Shown here: positions 1,439-62,570 of the stretch, piece by piece
Numbering within the stretch: the first letter of the stretch is position 1
Layout: each line of letters begins with the position of its first letter
From: Candidatus Baltobacteraceae bacterium
Lineage (GTDB): Bacteria; Vulcanimicrobiota; Vulcanimicrobiia; Vulcanimicrobiales; Vulcanimicrobiaceae
Direction of reading: 5' to 3'
Assembly: GCA_036489885.1 (NCBI GenBank)
Contig: DASXEW010000003.1
Coordinates: 62,001 to 126,000 of the forward strand
Length of the DNA stretch: 64,000 nt
Translations under genes and position numbers: made by a program
Notes under the pieces: generated by a model
Told to the model about the DNA's origin: nothing
Database searches by the model: none
Seen by the model: only the letters and a program-made list of their open reading frames with translations

Positions 1439-3714
1439 AGCGCAGCATCGCCCTCCTCACGCCGTGGTACGGCCCGGAGTGCACGGGCGGAGCCGAATCG
1501 CTTGCGCGTGAGCTCGCCGAGCGTCTCTCCGTGGAAAATAAAGTCACAATCCTAACGACAACGTCGCGTTCGTTCTTGCACGACTGGGACAAAGATTTTC
1601 ACAAGGCCGGACGCTCGAAGGAAGGGTCGAAGGACGTTTTACGATTTCGCGTCCGAAGGCGCGATCGTAGGATATTCAACGACCTCAACACGTCGCTCCT
1701 CGAGCTTCCGCAAGAACGCTGGGGCGAGGTTGCTCGCAGCCGGTCGTTCACCGATCCGTTCATCGAGAACTCGATCAACTCGCCGGACCTGGAGAATTAT
1801 CTAGCACGAGAGAGTGCATCGCACTATGATGCCGTCCTCGCGCTTCCGTATCTCTACGGTGTTGTCGTCCGCGGCATCGCTGCAGCGAGCGGGCCTGTAC
1901 ATCTCGTTCCATGTCTGCATGACGAAGCGTATGCGCGAATACCGCACATCGAAGACGCGTTTCACAAGGCACGAACGCTGCTCTTCAACAGCGCAGGCGA
2001 AGCTGCGCTCGCGAAACAGCTGTACGGGCCCGGCATTTTACACAAGTCGCACATTGTCGGCACGGGAGTGCCACCCGCCGGCGAAGCCGGGCCGCTTCCC
2101 CCGATCGCAACGTCGCCCTATTATCTCTTTCTTGGCCGCCGTGCGCCCGAAAAAGGCTTGGATCTTCTGCTCGAAGCTTTTCAGCGCTCGCGCGGAAACG
2201 GCCACGGGCGAGAGATCGCGCTTATTCTCGCGGGCCCGGGTGAACGATCGTATTCCGATCCAGATCGTGGCATTCACGATCTCGGCTTCGTCGATGAGGC
2301 GACGAAGCGCGCGCTCTTGCGCGACGCTCTTGCCCTTGCGAGTCCAAGTAAGAACGAAAGCTATTCGCGCGTCTTGATGGAAGCGTGGCGCGAACACACG
2401 CCCGTCATCGCGCACGCAGATTGTCTCGCCACCGCAACCGCCGTCCGCGAGTCGCGAGGCGGTTTGGTCGCAGGCACGAGCGATGAGTGGACAAGGGCGC
2501 TGAACGCGATGCACTCGATGGAAGCTGTATCGCGCCAAGCGATGGGCGCTTCCGGCGCGGAATACGCTGCCGAGAACGCCGATTGGGACAAGGCTCTTGC
2601 GCGGCTGCGCGATGCTATCGGCATCGAGCAGGCCGCCTCCCCGGCTCCGAAACGCGGCAAACGGATCGATCAAGTACTTGAAGCCGTCGACGAAGGTGAT
2701 GCCATCACGCAGCAGGCGCGACGCATTCGGGACCGCTTACGCGACATCGGTTACGATTCGAACATCTACGCAACGAGCATCCCGCCCGGCGTCTCCGATG
2801 CGCATTCGCTTGTCCAATCAAGCGTGAGCGGTGCGGATGCGCTTATCCTTCATCATTCGATTGGCTCGAACGCGGCAGACGCCGTTTTGAAAGCCCGATG
2901 CCGCAAAGCGATGGTTTATCACAATATTACGCCGGCGAGGTTTTTCGCGCCTTACGCGCCCGACGTTGCCGCACAACTCGAGCAGGGTCGCGAGCAGTTG
3001 GCTGCGTCGGTCCAGAAGTTCGATATCCTCATTGGGGCTTCGGATTACAACGCACGCGAGCTTGTCGCGCTTGGCGCGAAGAACGTGCGGACGCTTCCCG
3101 TAGTACCAGATCTAAACCGCTTTGACCGCACGCCGGCGGACGGGTCGATCCGCCTGCGGCGCGGGACAACTTGGCTCTTCGTGGGGCGCATCGTTCCGAA
3201 CAAAGGCATAAAGGCGCTGATTGAAGCCTTTGCCGCATACCTGCGTTTCGACGACTCGGCGAGTTTGGTCGTGCTTGGAAAATTCGATGGCGGAGACGCC
3301 TACTATAGCGAGCTCCGACGTAGCGTCGCCGAGTACAACATCAGGCCGTACGTGACGTTTACGGGTTATATGGAGGACGACAGCGTCGTCGGGAAATATC
3401 GCAGCGCCGATGTGTTCGTCTGCTTGAGCGAGCACGAGGGGTTTTGCGTGCCGCTAGTTGAGGCGATGTTCTTCGACGTTCCGATCGTTGCGAAAGCATT
3501 GACGGCCGTGCCCGAGACTCTCGGGCCCGCCGGACTCATTCTCGAGCCCGGCGCCGACGCATTCGACGTCGCTGCAGCCGTTTGGGAAGTCGTCACGAAT
3601 GCGAAGGTACGCCGTACGATCCTGGAGGCCCAACGTGAACGACGCGAAGCATTTCTCGCGGAGAAAATCGACCCACTGATTGATGCGCTAGGCGCGGACC
3701 TCATCGCGTACTAA
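1435..3714 (+). CDS. Tandem GT4-GT4 glycosyltransferase
   Basis: A 759-residue fusion of two GT-B glycosyltransferase units. The first (about residues 1-400) starts with SIALLTPWYGPECTGGAES, a typical GT4 N-terminus with the GGAE donor loop, and has YLFLGRRAPEKGLDLLLEAF and ALASPSKNESYSRVLMEAW. The second (about 410-759) opens with IDQVLEAVDEGDAI, has FVGRIVPNKGIKALIEAF and ends its donor site with VCLSEHEGFCVPLVEAMFF. Both carry an intact EX7E-type region, so both may be active and could add two sugars in sequence. The first unit is closely similar to the N-terminal unit of the - strand gene at 28624-30411. GTG start at 1435 overlaps the upstream TGA. Two separate substrates are inferred, not seen. 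Confidence 0.9.
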   Translation: MKRSIALLTPWYGPECTGGAESLARELAERLSVENKVTILTTTSRSFLHDWDKDFHKAGRSKEGSKDVLRFRVRRRDRRIFNDLNTSLLELPQERWGEVARSRSFTDPFIENSINSPDLENYLARESASHYDAVLALPYLYGVVVRGIAAASGPVHLVPCLHDEAYARIPHIEDAFHKARTLLFNSAGEAALAKQLYGPGILHKSHIVGTGVPPAGEAGPLPPIATSPYYLFLGRRAPEKGLDLLLEAFQRSRGNGHGREIALILAGPGERSYSDPDRGIHDLGFVDEATKRALLRDALALASPSKNESYSRVLMEAWREHTPVIAHADCLATATAVRESRGGLVAGTSDEWTRALNAMHSMEAVSRQAMGASGAEYAAENADWDKALARLRDAIGIEQAASPAPKRGKRIDQVLEAVDEGDAITQQARRIRDRLRDIGYDSNIYATSIPPGVSDAHSLVQSSVSGADALILHHSIGSNAADAVLKARCRKAMVYHNITPARFFAPYAPDVAAQLEQGREQLAASVQKFDILIGASDYNARELVALGAKNVRTLPVVPDLNRFDRTPADGSIRLRRGTTWLFVGRIVPNKGIKALIEAFAAYLRFDDSASLVVLGKFDGGDAYYSELRRSVAEYNIRPYVTFTGYMEDDSVVGKYRSADVFVCLSEHEGFCVPLVEAMFFDVPIVAKALTAVPETLGPAGLILEPGADAFDVAAAVWEVVTNAKVRRTILEAQRERREAFLAEKIDPLIDALGADLIAY

Positions 3715-38319: not shown

Positions 38320-38927
38320 CGCAGGCTGATCGGAATATCGCGCTCGGTGGTCGGGCCGTTACCGTCGCGCGCGATCACCTGCAGCGTGTAATTGCCTTTC
38401 AAGAAAAATGGCAAGTCCGGAATAACGCCTGACGCCCTGAACAATCCGCTGTGCGCTTTCGGAACCGGCATTGCCCACGAGCTGATGTGAATGTCGACAT
38501 TCGAGACGTTGTCAGTGGTTGTAACGTAACCGCTGACGGTTTCGCCCGATTTGATCTGGAGCGTCGAGAGATGAATCGCGAGGATGCGCGGCTTGCTGTC
38601 GGCTGTCCCTCGACTTCGCGCCTTCGGCGCTACGCTCGGGATGACAGGAGGACGCTCGACGCTCCCTATCACGTGGTACGGCGACACGCTTGGTAGTGGT
38701 ACAGGCATCTCGGAAACCGACTTGCCGGGCGCCGAGCTGCGGATGATATAGACGGGCGCAGTGGAGATCGCCCGCGGAGATGCAGCGGCGGCCTCCGTCG
38801 GCGCGACGGTCGGTGCCGCCGAAGGCGATGATTGTGGCCCCGAAACGGAGGCGGCGTGCGGAAAGCATCCAGCAAGTATCAAGAGGGCGCTCGCGCCAAG
38901 CGCGCGTAGGCAGCGCAGACATGTCAT
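38316..38927 (-). CDS. Lipoprotein with Ala/Pro-rich linker and beta-domain, containing an in-frame REP
   Basis: 203 residues from ATG at 38927. Signal with lipobox ASALLILAGC gives Cys about residue 21; a low-complexity Ala/Pro/Ser linker follows. Residues about 94-108 (PPVIPSVAPKARSRG) are translated from a REP-like palindrome. The C-terminal domain (PRILAIHLSTLQIKSGETV through DGNGPTTERDIPISL) is paralogous to that of the secreted protein at 43702-44256: same P-I-I start, central NV.N, PKA..G.F, K..Y and terminal IPI.L. Fold is probably an Ig-like beta sandwich; function unknown. Its start codon overlaps the start of the divergent GT2 gene. Confidence 0.72.
   Translation of the reverse strand: MTCLRCLRALGASALLILAGCFPHAASVSGPQSSPSAAPTVAPTEAAAASPRAISTAPVYIIRSSAPGKSVSEMPVPLPSVSPYHVIGSVERPPVIPSVAPKARSRGTADSKPRILAIHLSTLQIKSGETVSGYVTTTDNVSNVDIHISSWAMPVPKAHSGLFRASGVIPDLPFFLKGNYTLQVIARDGNGPTTERDIPISLR
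38605..38647 (+). repeat. REP-like palindrome inside the lipoprotein coding region
   Basis: Full-length copy: begins GTCCCTCGACTTCGC, has the central stem GCGCC-TTC-GGCGC and ends GCTACGCTCGGGATGACA. It lies within the - strand lipoprotein gene and is read in frame as residues of its linker. Confidence 0.8.
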
Positions 38928-42397: not shown

Positions 42398-42439
42398 GTC
42401 CCTCGACTACGCGCCTTCGGCGCTACGCTCGGGGTGACA
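42398..42439 (+). repeat. REP-like palindrome abutting the GT87-like start codon
   Basis: Full copy beginning GTCCCTCGACTACGC, stem GCGCC-TTC-GGCGC, ending GCTACGCTCGGGGTGACA. It begins 5 bases after the upstream stop codon and ends one base before the next ATG (42440), so it is the whole intergenic spacer. Confidence 0.82.
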
Positions 42440-43705
42440 ATGTTGAGCGTACCGCTCGTCATTGCATTTGGCGCAATTGCATCGCATGTTGTCTTTCCGG
42501 CGTTGCATAAACCCGACGCTGTTCTCTCTCAGCCGGTCGCCGTCGTTACGGCGTGGGGCTGGTCCGGAGTTGCGGCATGGCTGATTTACTTCGCGACCAT
42601 GCTGCTCGCGGGAATCGCCTACGGATTTGCTATCGCGCGCAGCCGCGAAACACCGCTCATCGCGATTCTCGCCGGAAGCGTTCTTGCATGCTGCGCCGCC
42701 CTTGCGTTCCGCTTTATCTTCTCGAGCGACGTCTACGCATATGCAGCCTATGGCGCGTTATCGGCGACACATCACGATCCGTATATCCCCCATACGCTTC
42801 CGCCACTGCAGCTGGTAGACGCCGTATGGACGCACGCAATCGGGTTCGAATGGCCGTCGCTCCCGGCGTTCATCTACGGCCCTGCATTTCTCGCGCTCGT
42901 CCATGTGACCGTCGTCGCGACGCATTTCGATCTTCCGACAACATTGATCGCGTTGCGCGCAATCGAAATCATCGCGTTTGTTGCGGCAGTCGGCGTTGCA
43001 GCTAACGCGGTGCCTGAACGAGGCCGGTTACTGGCAGCGATCATCGGCCTCAATCCCGTCGTGATTTCCACGGTGTCCGACGGGCACAATGATGCGCTGG
43101 TTTTACTCGTGGTCGCAATAGGCGCGCTCATTGCGCTTCGCAAGCCCGAATTTGGCGGCTTTCTTGCGGGAGCATCGATGATGCTCAAAGCGACCGGCGC
43201 CGTCGCGACCATCGCACTCGCGTACGTCCTGCGCGATCGCCGATTCACTCTGTGGGGATGTGCGGCGATCGGGCTCAGCATCGTCGCGCAATTGGTTTCA
43301 ACACAACTCGCCGGTGGCTACCGAACTGCTGCAGCAACCGATTTCGTGGGCACCGGGGAGGCGGCGATTGCGATCGGCATTCGCGGATTGATCGCTCTCG
43401 GACTCGTCGCACGAGCGCTTTACAATGCCGCAAGGGGCGATCGCGCTGCGGCGCTAGCTGCCGCTGCCCTTGCAATCTGGGCGCTTTATCCGCAAGACTA
43501 CCCGTGGTACGGCATGTGGCTGCTCCCCTTGGCAGCGTTCACGCTCGAGCAGCGGGAAGGTCCCGTGCTCGTTCTGCTGACGTTTAGCAGCACGCTGCGT
43601 TACCTCTCAGACGCCTACGGGTTCGCACCGGCGGCTCCGTGGCTCGAGCTCATCGCACTCGTGACCCCGCTTGCCGGCTATTTGAGGGAACCACTACCCA
43701 CGTGA
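42440..43705 (+). CDS. GT-C membrane mannosyltransferase-like protein (GT87/DUF2029 type)
   Basis: 421 residues from ATG at 42440, about 11 hydrophobic segments. The first large loop contains FRFIFSSDVYAYAAYGALSA followed by HHDPYIPHTLPP, matching the Asp-containing loop and following segment of polyprenyl-phosphomannose-dependent alpha-mannosyltransferases (GT87, MptA/PimE relatives). LNPVVISTVSDGHNDALVLL is another hallmark (the GHND motif of this group), as is WALYPQDYPWYGMWLLP near the C-terminus. It would add a sugar from a polyprenyl carrier, for which the GtrB-like enzyme at 38921 is a candidate supplier. GTGA overlap with the next gene. Confidence 0.82.
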   Translation: MLSVPLVIAFGAIASHVVFPALHKPDAVLSQPVAVVTAWGWSGVAAWLIYFATMLLAGIAYGFAIARSRETPLIAILAGSVLACCAALAFRFIFSSDVYAYAAYGALSATHHDPYIPHTLPPLQLVDAVWTHAIGFEWPSLPAFIYGPAFLALVHVTVVATHFDLPTTLIALRAIEIIAFVAAVGVAANAVPERGRLLAAIIGLNPVVISTVSDGHNDALVLLVVAIGALIALRKPEFGGFLAGASMMLKATGAVATIALAYVLRDRRFTLWGCAAIGLSIVAQLVSTQLAGGYRTAAATDFVGTGEAAIAIGIRGLIALGLVARALYNAARGDRAAALAAAALAIWALYPQDYPWYGMWLLPLAAFTLEQREGPVLVLLTFSSTLRYLSDAYGFAPAAPWLELIALVTPLAGYLREPLPT

Positions 43706-45440: not shown

Positions 45441-45481
45441 CCTCGACTACGCTCCTTCCGGTCGCTACGCTCGGGATGACA
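45438..45481 (-). repeat. REP-like palindrome at the hldD 3' end
   Basis: Copy reading GTCCCTCGACTACGC ... GCTACGCTCGGGATGACA on the + strand, with a degenerate stem (TCCTTCCGGTCG). It overlaps the hldD stop (45465-45467) and supplies its last codons (LVSSRA), and it abuts the VapC relic. Confidence 0.75.
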
Positions 45482-46487
45482 CGAGAGGGCGTGACAAATC
45501 GGCAGGCGGCTCGTCGCCTAGGGCGTGACCCGGGATCAGGTAGCCGCGGACGTAGTCGGCGATCCCGTCCTCGAGCGAGGTGATCGGCCGGTCGTAGCCG
45601 GTGCTGCGGATCTTGTCGATCGAGGCCTGCGTCGCGTACTGATAGCGCCCGCGTAGGACCTCGGGCATCTCGATAAAGCGGATGTCCGGTTTGCGCCCCA
45701 TCGATGTGAAGACGGAGCTGACGAGATCAAGCCACGTCCGCGCAGCGCCCGAGCCTACATTGAATAGTCCGCGCGCACTCGGCGTGTTTGCGAGATGGAC
45801 GGTCATGGCAACCGCGTCTTTGACGTAAATGAAATCGCGCGTTTGTTCCCCGTCCGCAATTTCGGGGCGGTAACTCTTGAAGAGTCCGACCCATCCGTCG
45901 CGCGTGATGCTCTCATAGGCTTTGTGAACGACCGAACGCATCTCGCCCTTGTGATCTTCGTTCGGTCCGTACACGTTGAAATATTTCAGACCGACGATTT
46001 TATCCAGCATCCCGGTACGCGCTGCATAGACATCGAAGATATGCTTTGAAAATCCATACTTGTTGAGCGGCCGCAATTCCGAGGCCGGCAGATCTTCACG
46101 CAGTCCATGCTCGCGGGAACCATACGTTGCGCCGGAGCTTGCATACACGAATCGGCGACCTTTGCCGACCGCCCACTCGGCCAACATCTTCGTATAACCG
46201 AAATTGTTGCGGATTAAGTAACTTGCGTCGCTTTCCGTCGTCGACGAGCAGGCACCAAGATGGAAAACCGTTGAGATTTCGTCAAGTTTGCCTGGTGACT
46301 CGTTGACGATGCGTGCAAGCTCGTCGGCTTCGAGGTAGTCGCGAAAACGGAGCGGAACGAGATGACGCCACTTTTCGCCGGTACCCAATCGATCGGCGAT
46401 CAGGATATCGTCGAAACCTCGCCGGTTAAGCTCCCAAACGAGCGCACTTCCAATGAAGCCCGCGCCGCCGGTAACAAGTATCCGCAT
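45465..46487 (-). CDS. hldD: ADP-L-glycero-D-manno-heptose 6-epimerase
   Basis: 340 residues from ATG at 46487 (an upstream in-frame start adds 9 residues without homology). Makes ADP-L-glycero-D-manno-heptose for the LPS inner core. Motifs: MRILVTGGAGFIGSALVWEL, IADRLGTGEKWRHL, FHLGACSSTTESDASYL (family hallmark), YASSGATYGSREHG, NKYGFSKHIFDVY (Tyr/Lys pair), KYFNVYGPNEDHKGEM and QTRDFIYVKDAV. Supports LPS-like glycolipids in this organism, together with the LptD-like protein. The C-terminal tail is extended by a REP. Divergent from mfd with a 36-base gap. Confidence 0.94.
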   Translation of the reverse strand: MRILVTGGAGFIGSALVWELNRRGFDDILIADRLGTGEKWRHLVPLRFRDYLEADELARIVNESPGKLDEISTVFHLGACSSTTESDASYLIRNNFGYTKMLAEWAVGKGRRFVYASSGATYGSREHGLREDLPASELRPLNKYGFSKHIFDVYAARTGMLDKIVGLKYFNVYGPNEDHKGEMRSVVHKAYESITRDGWVGLFKSYRPEIADGEQTRDFIYVKDAVAMTVHLANTPSARGLFNVGSGAARTWLDLVSSVFTSMGRKPDIRFIEMPEVLRGRYQYATQASIDKIRSTGYDRPITSLEDGIADYVRGYLIPGHALGDEPPADLSRPLVSSRA

Positions 46488-58187: not shown

Positions 58188-59713
58188 GCGAAACGCGCCG
58201 GCCGCTCGTCCTTGCCGTACTCGATGGCTGGGGCGTGCGAACCGAGACACACGGTAACGCAATCGCCGCAGCGGAGCTACCGAATTGGCAGCGTTTCCTG
58301 GCGACGTATCCGCACACGCTGCTCGAAGCCAGCGGCGAAGACGTCGGACTCCCGCACGGCATCATGGGCAACAGCGAAGTCGGACACATCAACATCGGCA
58401 GCGGACGCGTCGTGCCGCAGGGCGTCGTCGTCATCGACAGCGCGATCGCCGAAGGCAGCTTTGCGAAGAATCCCGTGCTCCAGCAGGCGATCGCACACGT
58501 TCAAAAGACGAGCGGTACGCTGCATTTTCTCGGTTTGCTGAGCGACGGCTGCGTGCACAGCTCGATGTTGCACCTTGAAGCGCTGATCGATTCCGCCGCG
58601 AACGCAAAAGTGCCGTTCGAGATTCACGCGTTTCTGGACGGACGCGATACGCCGCCGCGCTCGGCGCTAAATTACATCGACCGCATCAGCAAGCGGCTGG
58701 AAGCCGTCGCGGCCCCGAACGCGATTGCAACCATCAGTGGGCGATTCTTCGCGATGGACCGTGACAAGCGCTGGGATCGCGTCGAGCGGGCGTACGATGC
58801 GCTGGCAAGCGGCAAGGCTGCGTTCAACGCGCCGACTGCGCGCGCAGCAATCGAAGCCGCGTACGCGCGAAACGAAAACGACGAATTCGTGCAGCCGACG
58901 CTGATCGGAGCCGTGCGTCCGATACGCGAAGGCGACTCGGCGATCTTCTTCAACTTCCGGCCGGACCGCGCGCGGGAGCTAACGCTGGCGTTCACGGATC
59001 ATTCGTTCTCGCACTTCAATACGGTGAAATACGGCGACCTCGTCTTCGCTACGATGACGAGATATGAGGAGAACTTTCCGAACCCCGTGCTTTTCGGACC
59101 GCGCCCGCAGTCGCAGACGTTCGGCGAAGTCATCGCCGAAGCCGGTCTCCGTCAGCTGCGCCTGGCCGAAACCGAGAAGTACGCGCACGTCACGTATTTC
59201 TTCAACGGCGGCCGCGAAGACGTTTTCGAAAACGAAGACCGCATTCTGATTCCATCGAACCGCAAGGTGGCGACCTACGATCTCGCGCCCGAGATGATGG
59301 CCGCCGAAATCACGACGGCCGCGATCGAAGACCTCGATCATAAACATCACGACGTGATTGTGATGAACTACGCCAACGCCGACATGGTCGGTCACACGGG
59401 CGTGTGGGATGCGACGATCTCCGCCGTTGAGACGCTCGACGTCTCGCTCGGACGGCTCGAACAGCGCGTCCTTGCACGCGACGGCATTTTGGTCATCACG
59501 TCCGACCACGGGAACGCCGAAGAAAAGATCGACGCCGACGGAAATCCGCTCACGGCGCACACGACAAGCCCCGTGCCGCTCGTGATCATCTCGCAAACAT
59601 CGGTCGGCACGCTCGCGAACGGCGGCAAGCTCGGCGACATCGCGCCGACGCTGCTTCCGCTGATGGGCTTGCGCGTACCGGGCGAGATGACCGGCAAAAA
59701 CCTGCTGGCGTGA
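58184..59713 (+). CDS. gpmI: Cofactor-independent phosphoglycerate mutase
   Basis: 509 residues, GTG start at 58184. Alkaline-phosphatase superfamily fold with metal sites LAVLDGWGVR and LVITSDHGNAEEKI, the phosphorylated Ser in MGNSEVGHINIGSGR, and the family segments FLDGRDTPPRSALNYI, RFFAMDRDKRWDRVE and NYANADMVGHTG. Full length. Mn-dependent interconversion of 3- and 2-phosphoglycerate. GTGA overlap with the following nucleoside phosphorylase gene. Confidence 0.97.
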   Translation: MSETRRPLVLAVLDGWGVRTETHGNAIAAAELPNWQRFLATYPHTLLEASGEDVGLPHGIMGNSEVGHINIGSGRVVPQGVVVIDSAIAEGSFAKNPVLQQAIAHVQKTSGTLHFLGLLSDGCVHSSMLHLEALIDSAANAKVPFEIHAFLDGRDTPPRSALNYIDRISKRLEAVAAPNAIATISGRFFAMDRDKRWDRVERAYDALASGKAAFNAPTARAAIEAAYARNENDEFVQPTLIGAVRPIREGDSAIFFNFRPDRARELTLAFTDHSFSHFNTVKYGDLVFATMTRYEENFPNPVLFGPRPQSQTFGEVIAEAGLRQLRLAETEKYAHVTYFFNGGREDVFENEDRILIPSNRKVATYDLAPEMMAAEITTAAIEDLDHKHHDVIVMNYANADMVGHTGVWDATISAVETLDVSLGRLEQRVLARDGILVITSDHGNAEEKIDADGNPLTAHTTSPVPLVIISQTSVGTLANGGKLGDIAPTLLPLMGLRVPGEMTGKNLLA

Positions 59714-60474
59714 ACGAGCTCGCAAAGCGCGCGGGCGGCGAAGTCGATCTCGCGATCGTTTTGGGAACCGGTTTGTCCGGACTCGTAGCGGAGCGAATTC
59801 ACCACCCGAAAAAGATTCCGTACGCGGAGCTTGGACTGCCGCGCGCAACGCTGCTCGGACACGCGGGCGAAGCGATCGCCGGTGAGTGGCACAAACGCCG
59901 CGTCGTCGCTTTTTCCGGACGCTTTCATCTCTATCAAGGCTTTGACGCGCGACAAGTTACGGCGCAGGTCGATCTCGCGAGCGGCGCCGGTGCTAAGACG
60001 ATCATCCTTACGAACGCATCCGGCGGTTTGAATTCGAACTTCAAGGCGACCGATCTCATGCTGATCACCGATCAGATCAATCTGACCGGAACGAGCCCGC
60101 TGATCGGTCCCGACGAGCCGAATCCGTTCATCGAAATGCTTGGCGCGTACGATTCCGAGCTGTGCGAGATTGCGCGGCGTCGCGCCGCTTCGCTGGGCAT
60201 CAGCTTGCGCGAAGGCGTCTACGCCGGTCTCGTCGGGCCCGCATTCGAGACGCAGGCTGAAGCGCGGTGGCTGCGCTCGATCGCCGATGTGGTCGGCATG
60301 TCGACTGTGCTCGAAACGATTCGCGCGCGCTACTTGAAGATGCGCGTCCTCGGTTTCAGCGTCATCACCAACATGGTCGGCTTACCGACCTCTCATGAAG
60401 AAGTCATCGCTGCCGGCAACACGCGCGCTGCGGACCTCGCCCGCCTCCTCGACGCCATCGTCGAATCGCTGTAG
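59710..60474 (+). CDS. punA: Purine nucleoside phosphorylase
   Basis: 254 residues, GTG at 59710 with 4-base overlap. PNP-family signs: DLAIVLGTGLSGLVAERI, LPRATLLGHAGEA, VVAFSGRFHLYQGFD, IILTNASGGLNSNFKATDL, LITDQINLTGTSPLIGP, GVYAGLVGPAFETQAE and VGMSTVLETIRAR (usually GMSTVPE; here L replaces P). Splits inosine or guanosine with phosphate to base and ribose-1-phosphate, which DeoB at 34454-35599 can isomerise. The glycolytic operon ends here; no clear terminator is seen, and the repeat-rich gap starts about 20 bases later. Confidence 0.93.
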   Translation: MNELAKRAGGEVDLAIVLGTGLSGLVAERIHHPKKIPYAELGLPRATLLGHAGEAIAGEWHKRRVVAFSGRFHLYQGFDARQVTAQVDLASGAGAKTIILTNASGGLNSNFKATDLMLITDQINLTGTSPLIGPDEPNPFIEMLGAYDSELCEIARRRAASLGISLREGVYAGLVGPAFETQAEARWLRSIADVVGMSTVLETIRARYLKMRVLGFSVITNMVGLPTSHEEVIAAGNTRAADLARLLDAIVESL

Positions 60475-60493
60475 TTGTAGCGCGAGCAGCGGG

Positions 60494-60556
60494 CGCGATC
60501 ACCGGGCGCACGTGGGAGATCACCGGGCGCACGTGGCGCGATCACCGGGCGCACGT
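60494..60556 (+). repeat. Left minisatellite: three 21-22 bp units
   Basis: Three copies of GATCACCGGGCGCACGT with unit spacing 21 then 22 bases (ATC at 60498, 60519 and 60541). It is the reverse-complement counterpart of the longer array at 60910-61095. Confidence 0.85.
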
Positions 60557-60598
60557 TCGATTTCCGCTGGCGACTGACTTCGCGCAAAGGGCCGCCTC
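60553..60598 (+). repeat. Inverted repeat, left arm (46 bp)
   Basis: Matches the reverse complement of 60864-60909 at 44 of 46 positions by eye; flanking minisatellite units extend the symmetry about 18 bases outward. Contains TTCGCGCAAAGGGCCGCC. Confidence 0.88.
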
Positions 60599-60628
60599 AC
60601 GCAAACATTGCGCGATTCGCTTCCCCTT

Positions 60629-60670
60629 TGTCATCCTGATAGCGCCCGCAGGGCGCGTAGTCGAAGGACC
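60629..60670 (-). repeat. REP-like palindrome, left inner copy
   Basis: Reverse orientation: TGTCATCCTGATAGCGCCC then CAGGGCGCGTAGTCGAAGGAC. Stem GCGCCC-GCA-GGGCGC. Mirrors the copy at 60768-60814. Confidence 0.8.
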
Positions 60671-60767
60671 ATTCCAGTAACGCGGGCAGCGAAACGATGC
60701 ACCAGATCGAGCACGCGATCGTACCCCCAACCTTTAGAGGTCGTTTCGGCGCCGGCAGGATTACCTC

Positions 60768-60814
60768 GGTCCTTCGACTTCGCAACGCTGCGCGTTGCTA
60801 CGCTCAGGATGACA
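60768..60814 (+). repeat. REP-like palindrome, right inner copy
   Basis: GGTCCTTCGACTTCGCAACG then CTGCGCGTTGCTACGCTCAG and GATGACA; stem CAACGC-TGC-GCGTTG. Confidence 0.8.
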
Positions 60815-60820
60815 TATGGC

Positions 60821-60842
60821 GAGCGCTACGCTCAGGATGACA
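60821..60842 (+). repeat. Partial REP (3' half only)
   Basis: GAGCGCTACGCTCAGGATGACA, the right half of the preceding REP repeated seven bases downstream of it. Confidence 0.7.
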
Positions 60843-60863
60843 CCAGGGGCGTGATCGTGCCCA

Positions 60864-60909
60864 GAGGCGGCCCTTTGCGCGAAATCAGTCGCCAGCGCAA
60901 ATCGAACGT
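60864..60909 (-). repeat. Inverted repeat, right arm (46 bp)
   Basis: Reverse-complement partner of 60553-60598 with two mismatches; 265 bases separate the arms. Confidence 0.88.
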
Positions 60910-61095
60910 GCGCCCGGTAATCGCGCTACCTGTGCCCGGTAATCGCGCTACCTGTGCCCGATAATCGCGCTGGGTGCGCCCCGGTAATCGCGCTACGTGC
61001 GCCCGATAATCGCGCTGGGTGCGCCCGGTAATCGCGCTACGTGCGCCCGGTAATCGCGCTGGTTGCGCCCCGGTAATCGCGCTGGGTGCTCCCGG
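60910..61095 (-). repeat. Right minisatellite: eight 22-23 bp units
   Basis: Unit GTGCGCCCGGTAATCGCGCT with eight TAATCGC cores at 60918, 60940, 60962, 60985, 61007, 61029, 61051 and 61074, then a degenerate ninth. Units alternate partly between CTACGT and CTGGGT at the junction and between CGGTAATC and CGATAATC. The 656-bp interval 60475-61130 holds only these repeats; no credible gene or terminator is seen. Confidence 0.9.
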
Positions 61096-61130
61096 TCTGC
61101 AAGGCTCCGACTGCATTCGCGCGAACCGCG

Positions 61131-62570
61131 ATGCACATGAGCCGTTTATCTCGTTCGCGTTTTCTTGGCACAGCAACCGCTGCGGCGATGACGCCGATGG
61201 TCGAGTGGATCAGGCCGGCAATGGCGGAGGCTGCGCCCTCGAAGCTGTCAGACATCGATCATCTGGTTTTCCTGATGCAAGAAAACCGGTCGTTCGATCA
61301 CTACTTCGGGTCGCTTTCGGGCGTACGCGGTTTCGGCGATCCAAAAGCAATTGAGTTGCCGGAGGGGCGGCCGGTCTTTTATCAGCCCGATCAGCTGACC
61401 AAGGGCGGCTACATTCTTCCATTTCATCTCGATACGAAGACGACAAGCGCGCAACGCTTGCACGATCTCAGCCATGCATGGAAGATTCTGCACGAGAGTT
61501 GGAACGGCGGAAAATTCGACGGTTGGGTGAGCGCGCATCGCGAGAGCAACGGCGCGAGCGGTCCGTTGACGATGGGCTATTACACGCGCGGCGATTTGCC
61601 GTTCTATTACTCGCTGGCCGACGCATTTACGATTTGCGACGGATACCATTGCTCCGTGATGGGTCCAACCGATCCGAACCGTTACTTCTGGATGAGCGCG
61701 TCGATCGACGCCGACGGGAAGAACGGCGGCCCGGCCACCTACAACAACGAGCACAAGCGCTATACATGGCCGACCTACGCCGAGCAGTTGCAGAAAGCCG
61801 GCGTCTCGTGGCGAATTTATCGTCCGGAAAGCGATCGCGAATACCCGGTCGGCCTCGACGTCGTCATGAATTTCGCGCCGTTCCAAGACGCTGACAAGAG
61901 TTCGTCGTTCTACGACAACGGCGTGAAGCTGCGTTCCGTCGATACGATGCTGCAAGACATTCGCACCGGAAATCTGCCGTCGGTCACGTGGATCATTCCG
62001 CCGTATGCGCTCTGCGAGCATCCCGACATGCTGCCGGCAGCCGGCGAAGATTACGTGCGCCAGATTCTCGAAGCGTTTTGGTCGAATCCAAAGACCTGGT
62101 CGCGCACGGCCTTTATCATCGTCTACGACGAGAACGATGGGCTCTTCGATCACGTCGTGCCGCCGACGCCGCCGGCCGGTGCCGCAGGCGAATACGTCGG
62201 CGGCGCACCGGTCGGTCTCGGTTTCCGCGTGCCGTGCCTCGTTATCTCGCCGTTTTCGCGCGGCGGATACGTGTGCGGCGACACCTTCGACCACACGTCG
62301 TGTCTGCGTTTGATCGAGAAACGCTTCGGCGTAGAGGTTCCGAATCTCACGGCTTGGCGGCGACAAACCTGCGGCGATCTGACGAGCGCATTCGGCTTCG
62401 GGGAAGCTCCCAACACAAGCGTTCCATCGCTGCCGCAAACGGCTGATGCACTCCGCGCCGTCCAAGCCGCGCTCAGCAGACTCAACCCGCCGGCGGTCCC
62501 CTTTCACCAGGCGATGCCGAAGCCCGAACCCGGAACGATCGTCCGGAAGCGCCGAGGCACCATCGCGTAG
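61131..62570 (+). CDS. Phosphoesterase / phospholipase C-type secreted enzyme
   Basis: 479 residues from ATG at 61131 (ATG at 61137 also possible; the frame remains open into the repeat array). N-terminal signal with SRLSRSRFLGTATAAAM, Tat-like but lacking the full twin Arg. Alkaline-phosphatase-superfamily PF04185 motifs: FLMQENRSFDHYFGSLSGVR (metal site), SVMGPTDPNRYFWMSA, SVTWIIPPYALCEHPDML and IVYDENDGLFDHVVPPTPP (second metal site), then CLVISPFSRGGYVCGDTFDH-TSCLRLIEKRF. This family includes phospholipases C and acid phosphatases; phosphate scavenging from lipids or esters in the periplasm is the likely role. Twelve bases before the diguanylate cyclase gene. Confidence 0.9.
   Translation: MHMSRLSRSRFLGTATAAAMTPMVEWIRPAMAEAAPSKLSDIDHLVFLMQENRSFDHYFGSLSGVRGFGDPKAIELPEGRPVFYQPDQLTKGGYILPFHLDTKTTSAQRLHDLSHAWKILHESWNGGKFDGWVSAHRESNGASGPLTMGYYTRGDLPFYYSLADAFTICDGYHCSVMGPTDPNRYFWMSASIDADGKNGGPATYNNEHKRYTWPTYAEQLQKAGVSWRIYRPESDREYPVGLDVVMNFAPFQDADKSSSFYDNGVKLRSVDTMLQDIRTGNLPSVTWIIPPYALCEHPDMLPAAGEDYVRQILEAFWSNPKTWSRTAFIIVYDENDGLFDHVVPPTPPAGAAGEYVGGAPVGLGFRVPCLVISPFSRGGYVCGDTFDHTSCLRLIEKRFGVEVPNLTAWRRQTCGDLTSAFGFGEAPNTSVPSLPQTADALRAVQAALSRLNPPAVPFHQAMPKPEPGTIVRKRRGTIA

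Follow-up and report, generated by a model that had tools for sequence, protein, structure and literature searches.

The element at positions 60492–61096 of the window (the whole 64,000-nucleotide stretch of DNA that was analysed) belongs to a dispersed family of repeats and is its most complete copy; REPs, outer arms and minisatellites are layered in it to give a 600-bp hairpin downstream of a gene cluster. It is probably a REP/BIME-type mosaic palindrome that acts as a two-way hairpin at the 3′ ends of genes, a reading based on dispersed, modular and palindromic REP-based copies at gene 3′ ends, on local tandem expansion and on signs of mobility. The usual account of REPs is that RAYT transposases move them as non-autonomous elements, and the main interest of this family is that the presumed spreading enzyme is missing from its own genome and from nearly all relatives.

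The element is about 600 bp long, intergenic and non-coding. It consists of three nested inverted modules, namely an outer arm with a terminal 20–23-bp unit, a REP and a quasi-palindromic centre of 99–102 bp. It sits between a glycolytic cluster, which includes iPGM, GAPDH, PGK and TPI genes (GAPDH, PGK and TPI identified solely by their ORF translations) and ends with a gene of the purine-nucleoside phosphorylase (PNP) family, and a phosphoesterase gene. The stop codon of the PNP-family gene is separated from the element start by 17 bp. The features are as follows.

59710–60474, plus strand: upstream gene, PNP family (PF01048)
60492–60556, plus strand: left minisatellite, three units of about 22 bp (GGCGCGATCACCGGGCGCACGT), every unit with GATCACC (3.0 copies in Tandem Repeats Finder)
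60553–60598, plus strand: left 46-bp outer arm (ACGTTCGATTTCCGC...CGCGCAAAGGGCCGCCT), from the inverted-repeat search
60629–60670, plus strand: left REP, with a degenerate head and an intact stem-loop GCGCCCGCAGGGCGC
60670–60768, no strand: quasi-palindromic centre of 99 bp, an A arm followed by a B arm; the genome has 12 copies, this one included
60769–60813, minus strand: right REP, GTCATCCTGAGCGTAG-CAACGCGCAGCGTTGCGAA-GTCGAAGGAC as read on the minus strand
60825–60842, minus strand: additional half REP beyond the right REP, consisting of the head alone
60864–60909, minus strand: right 46-bp outer arm, inverted, 44/46 identical to the left arm, from the inverted-repeat search
60906–61096, minus strand: right minisatellite of 22-bp units that carry GATTA[C/T]C (8.6 copies in Tandem Repeats Finder)
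61086–62570, plus strand: downstream gene, phosphoesterase family (PF04185)

The earlier note had described a giant imperfect palindrome at 60494–61095. The region stands, with its exact limits moved to 60492–61096, and the mirror-image order of units, 46-bp arm, REP and centre is recovered by Tandem Repeats Finder and the inverted-repeat search, as are the three left and eight inverted right units and the inversion of the arm at 44 of 46 positions. The half REP that had been placed beside the right REP is visible as a direct repeat (60797–60814/60825–60842). Of the REPs claimed on both sides, the left one has an intact stem-loop but a degenerate head (GTCATCCTGATAGCG, without GAGCGTAG). The feet of the two REPs (60655–60670/60768–60783) form an inverted repeat 97 bp apart, and the arms with their adjoining units form an 81-nt inverted repeat (60518–60598/60864–60944) that is 91% complementary. 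The palindromic character is also borne out by folding: as single-stranded RNA, 60492–61096 reaches −380.1 kcal/mol versus −264.6 ± 9.1 kcal/mol for 20 dinucleotide shuffles (z −12.7). The outer arm and its unit make up terminal inverted repeats such as a MITE has, present at both ends in the window copy and at a single end in most others; among the copies examined, the window copy alone has clear full arms on both sides. Searches of known collections gave no match to the window in Rfam 15 at the gathering score, none to 60400–61200 at E ≤ 5 and none to the element in a plasmid collection. Thirty exact 16-mers of the arm core in viral contigs were judged to be chance in GC-rich DNA.

Searching the genome and its relatives for the arm and the unit, as had been proposed, identifies the element as a member of a dispersed family and not a one-off. 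In its own genome (G000; 3.48 Mb in four contigs, 96% completeness), 77 places match parts of it, and a search for the REP head TGTCATCCYGAGCGTAG that allowed two mismatches gave 205 hits, against 0 for the reversed control. After deduplication, the extracted loci hold 96 full REPs, mostly of 41–45 nt, which have the character of short high-copy stem-loop palindromes by which REPs (20–40 bp) are recognized. The minus strand of the window carries three more single REPs of this family (38630–38670, 42423–42463 and 45465–45507), and the gene at 45465–46487 on that strand terminates at a TAG within its own REP. The REP head is repeated in many genomes of the family, with 10–200 copies in at least 39 of them and a patchy abundance, and among 50 genomes sampled from other families of the phylum it is repeated in G144 only (12 heads).

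A full REP consists of GTCATCCYGAGCGTAG, a variable stem-loop and GTCGARGGAC. The stem is hypervariable, and almost always fully compensated. Five variable positions of the stem are paired in 34–35 of the 35 distinct REPs of 45 nt, versus 14.6–25.2 expected from shuffling one stem side, a comparison that overstates significance since the REPs are related repeats. The pairs at these positions are of the CG, GC, AT and TA types, and such variety at a given position appears hard to explain without a pairing constraint or a correcting process. The 41- and 43-nt classes behave similarly, except for a tandem G·A/A·G mismatch at two positions in seven of the 13 43-nt REPs. An outer conserved Y:R pair is C–G in 68 and T–A in 27 of the 96 REPs. 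REPs of the GTAG superfamily carry an unpaired GTAG (or CGTC) at one end of the stem-loop. Here the GTAG motif adjoins the variable stem in 93/96, yet it lies within a longer conserved palindrome (GTCATCCYGA...TCGARGGAC, 41–45 nt). About 60 of the 96 loops are GNA triloops closed by C–G, including the GCGAAGC type, an extraordinarily stable DNA mini-hairpin, and several stems carry tandem G·A mismatches. If the REPs spread without a RAYT, as considered below, the d(GNA) triloops on most stems would suggest that what replicates is a single-stranded DNA hairpin.

Pairs of REPs with outward heads fall into two classes, one with short spacers (mostly 25–39 bp) and one with the 99–102-bp centre. 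The long class comprises 11 other full-length copies besides that of the window, so that two inverted REPs and their spacer are dispersed as a unit in 12 copies, as in REPINs; a 59-bp remnant (L035) is also present. A model of the centre recovers exactly these 12 copies and the remnant, nearly all of them on both strands because the centre itself is palindromic, which substantiates the weak mirror similarity suspected earlier. Each of the 12 quasi-palindromic centres is made of one A-type and one B-type arm (types assigned by eye), and the family therefore derives from one imperfect palindrome rather than from repeated inverted duplication. Double-sided changes affect only 2 of 16 consensus pairs; the centre palindrome is thus not clearly under structural selection. 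In the 98 other genomes of the family, the centre model found nothing convincing, and a borderline match in G036 (E 7e-4), whose surroundings have no REP head, was treated as noise. Judged from these sequence matches, the 99–102-bp centre is confined to its own genome.

The outer arm is found in about a dozen full-length places and several partial ones in its own genome, and some arms hold a single REP or none. It has a clear match beside REPs (E 1.7e-10) in G001, the only other genome of the same genus that was compared, where the order of modules differs, the inverted arm lying between the two REPs; matches of the arm model in the remaining genomes (E 0.002–0.01) were treated as noise. Since arms occur beside REPs in differing order, the modules form a mosaic, and a BIME is characterized by such a mixture, in which REPs in alternating orientation are combined with further conserved motifs. 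In this sister species, outer arms were observed along with REP pairs whose long centres differ in sequence (L190 1504–1840 in G001:C509; also L062, L071 and L052), and centres seem, from their sequences, to turn over between species. A short element at about 978–1070 of L032 (G000:C3:1650278) has units at both ends and a partial arm, with no REP inside. To the left of some long elements lies a shared sequence of about CGGGCCGAGCCC...GACTTGCTCACGATTG (L037 2658–2702 and L039 950–994; by eye also L038 and L044), perhaps a further module of the mosaic. A 245-bp direct repeat, 88% identical, at 175–417 and 1322–1566 of L173 is apparently unrelated to REPs.

Tandem repetition affects the units at the outer ends and the half REPs beyond the REPs, in 1 to about 9 copies, with a sequence that differs per element. 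Unit identity is 95% within arrays versus 72% between them (reached in none of 2000 label permutations; the right window array enters with only the four units caught by the unit pattern). Units are homogenized per array and not across arrays, which means that arrays expand locally and independently. In the window, the left units carry GATCACC and the right ones GATTACC or GATTATC, so the right array has expanded independently of the left. The palindrome-generated expansion that the earlier note had envisaged fits this homogenization per array. The pneumococcal BOX element (A-Bn-C) is also a hairpin of composite build in which one module is amplified in tandem; the amplified module is internal in BOX and terminal here, and we know of no sequence relation between the two systems.

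The position of the copies relative to genes is biased. According to a codon-usage gene finder trained on the window, and in a sample of loci made of the strongest listed matches, 68 REP clusters lie between genes, 30 of them convergent, 32 co-directional and 6 divergent, and four more are apparently inside ORFs. Among the gene pairs of the window, 36 are co-directional, 7 convergent and 7 divergent, and the 30:6 ratio of convergent to divergent contexts has p 7e-5. The 13 long elements (12 with full centres and the truncated one) are distributed likewise, with 8 convergent, 5 co-directional and 0 divergent contexts. The distance from REP to stop codon is often 1–20 bp. In six contexts, the TAG within the GTAG of the REP is where the adjoining ORF stops. 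Placement is accordingly extragenic and at 3′ ends, as for REPs in general, which could simply mean that insertions are tolerated at such sites. For lone REPs between co-directional genes, the head is on the coding strand in 14 cases against 5 (p 0.06), a sense-strand bias that is only suggestive.

These features lead us to propose that the element, being palindromic, serves as a two-way 3′-UTR structure. Whichever side a transcript comes from, the palindrome would place the same hairpin at its 3′ end, where, by analogy with E. coli REPs and in view of its location, it could block 3′ exonucleases and read-through. It would not be a U-tract intrinsic terminator; no T-rich terminator or U-tract was found within the element, and its action would therefore be protection, processing or factor-dependent termination. 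The element would spread as non-autonomous DNA and grow through slippage or template switching at hairpins.

Signs of mobility come from near-identical copies. At L037, two long elements (1007–1403 and 2709–3207, at about 49.4 and 51.1 kb of G000:C3) lie 1.8 kb apart; their REP–centre–REP parts are 98.7% identical, their outer flanks are unrelated and their number of half REPs differs. One of these copies has a REP of about 37 bp inside the arm, replacing TTT. A second pair, at L164, is a short REP dyad 98.6% identical and 0.57 kb apart. Recent copies with unrelated flanks, together with stop codons supplied by REPs, imply mobility. A target duplication is not evident by eye at the two L037 copies, whose ends are blurred by tandem units and have no empty site for comparison. 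A mobile MITE-like element and a source of long hairpin RNA, both among the options raised in the earlier note, are the best-fitting ones in the light of the dispersed copies, the recent pair, the stem compensation and the gene 3′ ends.

The enzyme expected to drive such spreading was searched for as Y1_Tnp (RAYT, PF01797), with positive results in E. coli and four other control genomes. The domain is absent from the element's own genome and present in four of the 99 genomes of the family. It occurs in one of 39 REP-rich genomes (at least 10 REP heads), as fragments in G105, versus three of the 60 others, and RAYT presence therefore does not track these REPs. A RAYT gene flanked by REPs, the arrangement of REPs or REPINs mobilized by a RAYT, was not found in the element's own genome. 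Loss of RAYT after spreading, incomplete assemblies or an unrelated mobilizer are possible explanations. It is also conceivable, if tentative, that the REP system spreads and persists family-wide without any Y1/RAYT, with copies and tandem growth arising through another enzyme or hairpin-dependent template switching in replication. Since at least 39 genomes contain this REP family and just one of them has a (fragmentary) Y1_Tnp, REP spreading and the upkeep of stem pairing become directly testable here.

The same signs of mobility would suit a purely selfish MITE/REPIN-like repeat, mobilized in trans by another transposase or by hairpin-dependent copying, devoid of host function and found at 3′ ends as harmless sites. 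Recent copies with different flanks, the REP nested inside an arm, the species-limited centre and the patchy abundance of REPs among genomes speak for this rather unlikely alternative; however, the compensated stems of dozens of old, diverged REPs call for selection or for an active process of correction, target duplications fail to appear by eye, and no transposase gene was seen tied to any copy (the formal search being for Y1_Tnp only). To the extent of that search, the reservation that the arms might be a known IS terminal sequence does not apply either. REPs, arms and 22-bp arrays might instead form a chromosome-organizing or protein-binding site. Binding of gyrase, an IHF/HU-like protein or a condensin loader has been proposed for E. 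coli BIMEs, for which binding of gyrase, IHF or Pol I counts as a typical property, and the BIME-like architecture and a 22-bp period close to two helical turns would agree with such a role here, which is nonetheless improbable: units vary from 20 to 23 bp (48 bp in one case) and are missing or single in many copies, so that a phased binding array is not conserved. An assembly or foldback artefact was a further concern, as foldback reads can yield long inverted repeats and the genome is a four-contig assembly of 96% completeness. However, the arms are 9% diverged and recur elsewhere with other flanks, making a mis-join unlikely, the two unit arrays differ in sequence, and parts of the element are found again between other flanks at a dozen loci or more; the assembly error named earlier as a ground for refutation does not apply, and an artefact is very improbable. 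The two-way 3′-end hairpin within a dispersed mosaic remains the preferred reading.

The earlier remark that no described family with such an architecture was known was too strong, as REP dimers nested in longer palindromes and BIMEs are described in the literature (PMC3733652, PMC2817692). GTAG-tagged REPs are high-copy extragenic stem-loops with compensated stems and GTAG beside the stem (Di Nocera et al. 2013, PMC3733652); GTAG and CGTC REPs occupy mostly convergent or co-directional 3′ ends, often <20 bp from stop codons, and GTAG REPs can supply their TAG as the stop and form dimers with spacers, some with complementary ends. The present REPs share with them compensated stems, GTAG at the stem (93/96), 3′-end sites, TAG stops and dimers. 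They differ in that their GTAG lies within the longer conserved 41–45-nt palindrome, which is not listed in that paper as far as its text shows, and in that their own genome is without a Y1/RAYT gene. In GTAG-15 of A. variabilis and CGTC-1 of H. neapolitanus, a REP dimer lies within a longer palindrome that is absent without REPs (PMC3733652). Nesting of the dimer is common to both systems, whereas those outer palindromes measure tens of bp and the present element spans 600 bp in three nested layers, two of which bear tandem arrays, and some arms of its family hold one REP or none. As in E. coli BIMEs, REPs alternate with other short motifs in a variable module order, but the sequence is unrelated, the centre is much longer and terminal minisatellites are present (PMC2817692). 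Like REPINs, two inverted REPs and a conserved spacer are dispersed as a unit, here with no RAYT, a spacer of 99–102 bp and extra outer modules (PMC3116915). REPs, dimers with structured spacers, dimers inside longer palindromes and BIME mosaics are all already described. To our knowledge, the three-layer 600-bp version, its sequence family and its lack of RAYT have no earlier description, and a text search of the literature for the literal REP head returned no repeat, only what look to be primer lists.

As to the flanking genes, the neighbouring PNP matches only distant taxa in the genome collection, at about 40% identity (close records may be missing), which yielded no orthologous empty site, and its orthologues in relatives are at most 66% identical, too distant for intergenic alignment. 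For the phosphoesterase gene, a start at the ATG near 61131, just past the right array, is likelier than the GTG at 61086, judging from the leader sequence.
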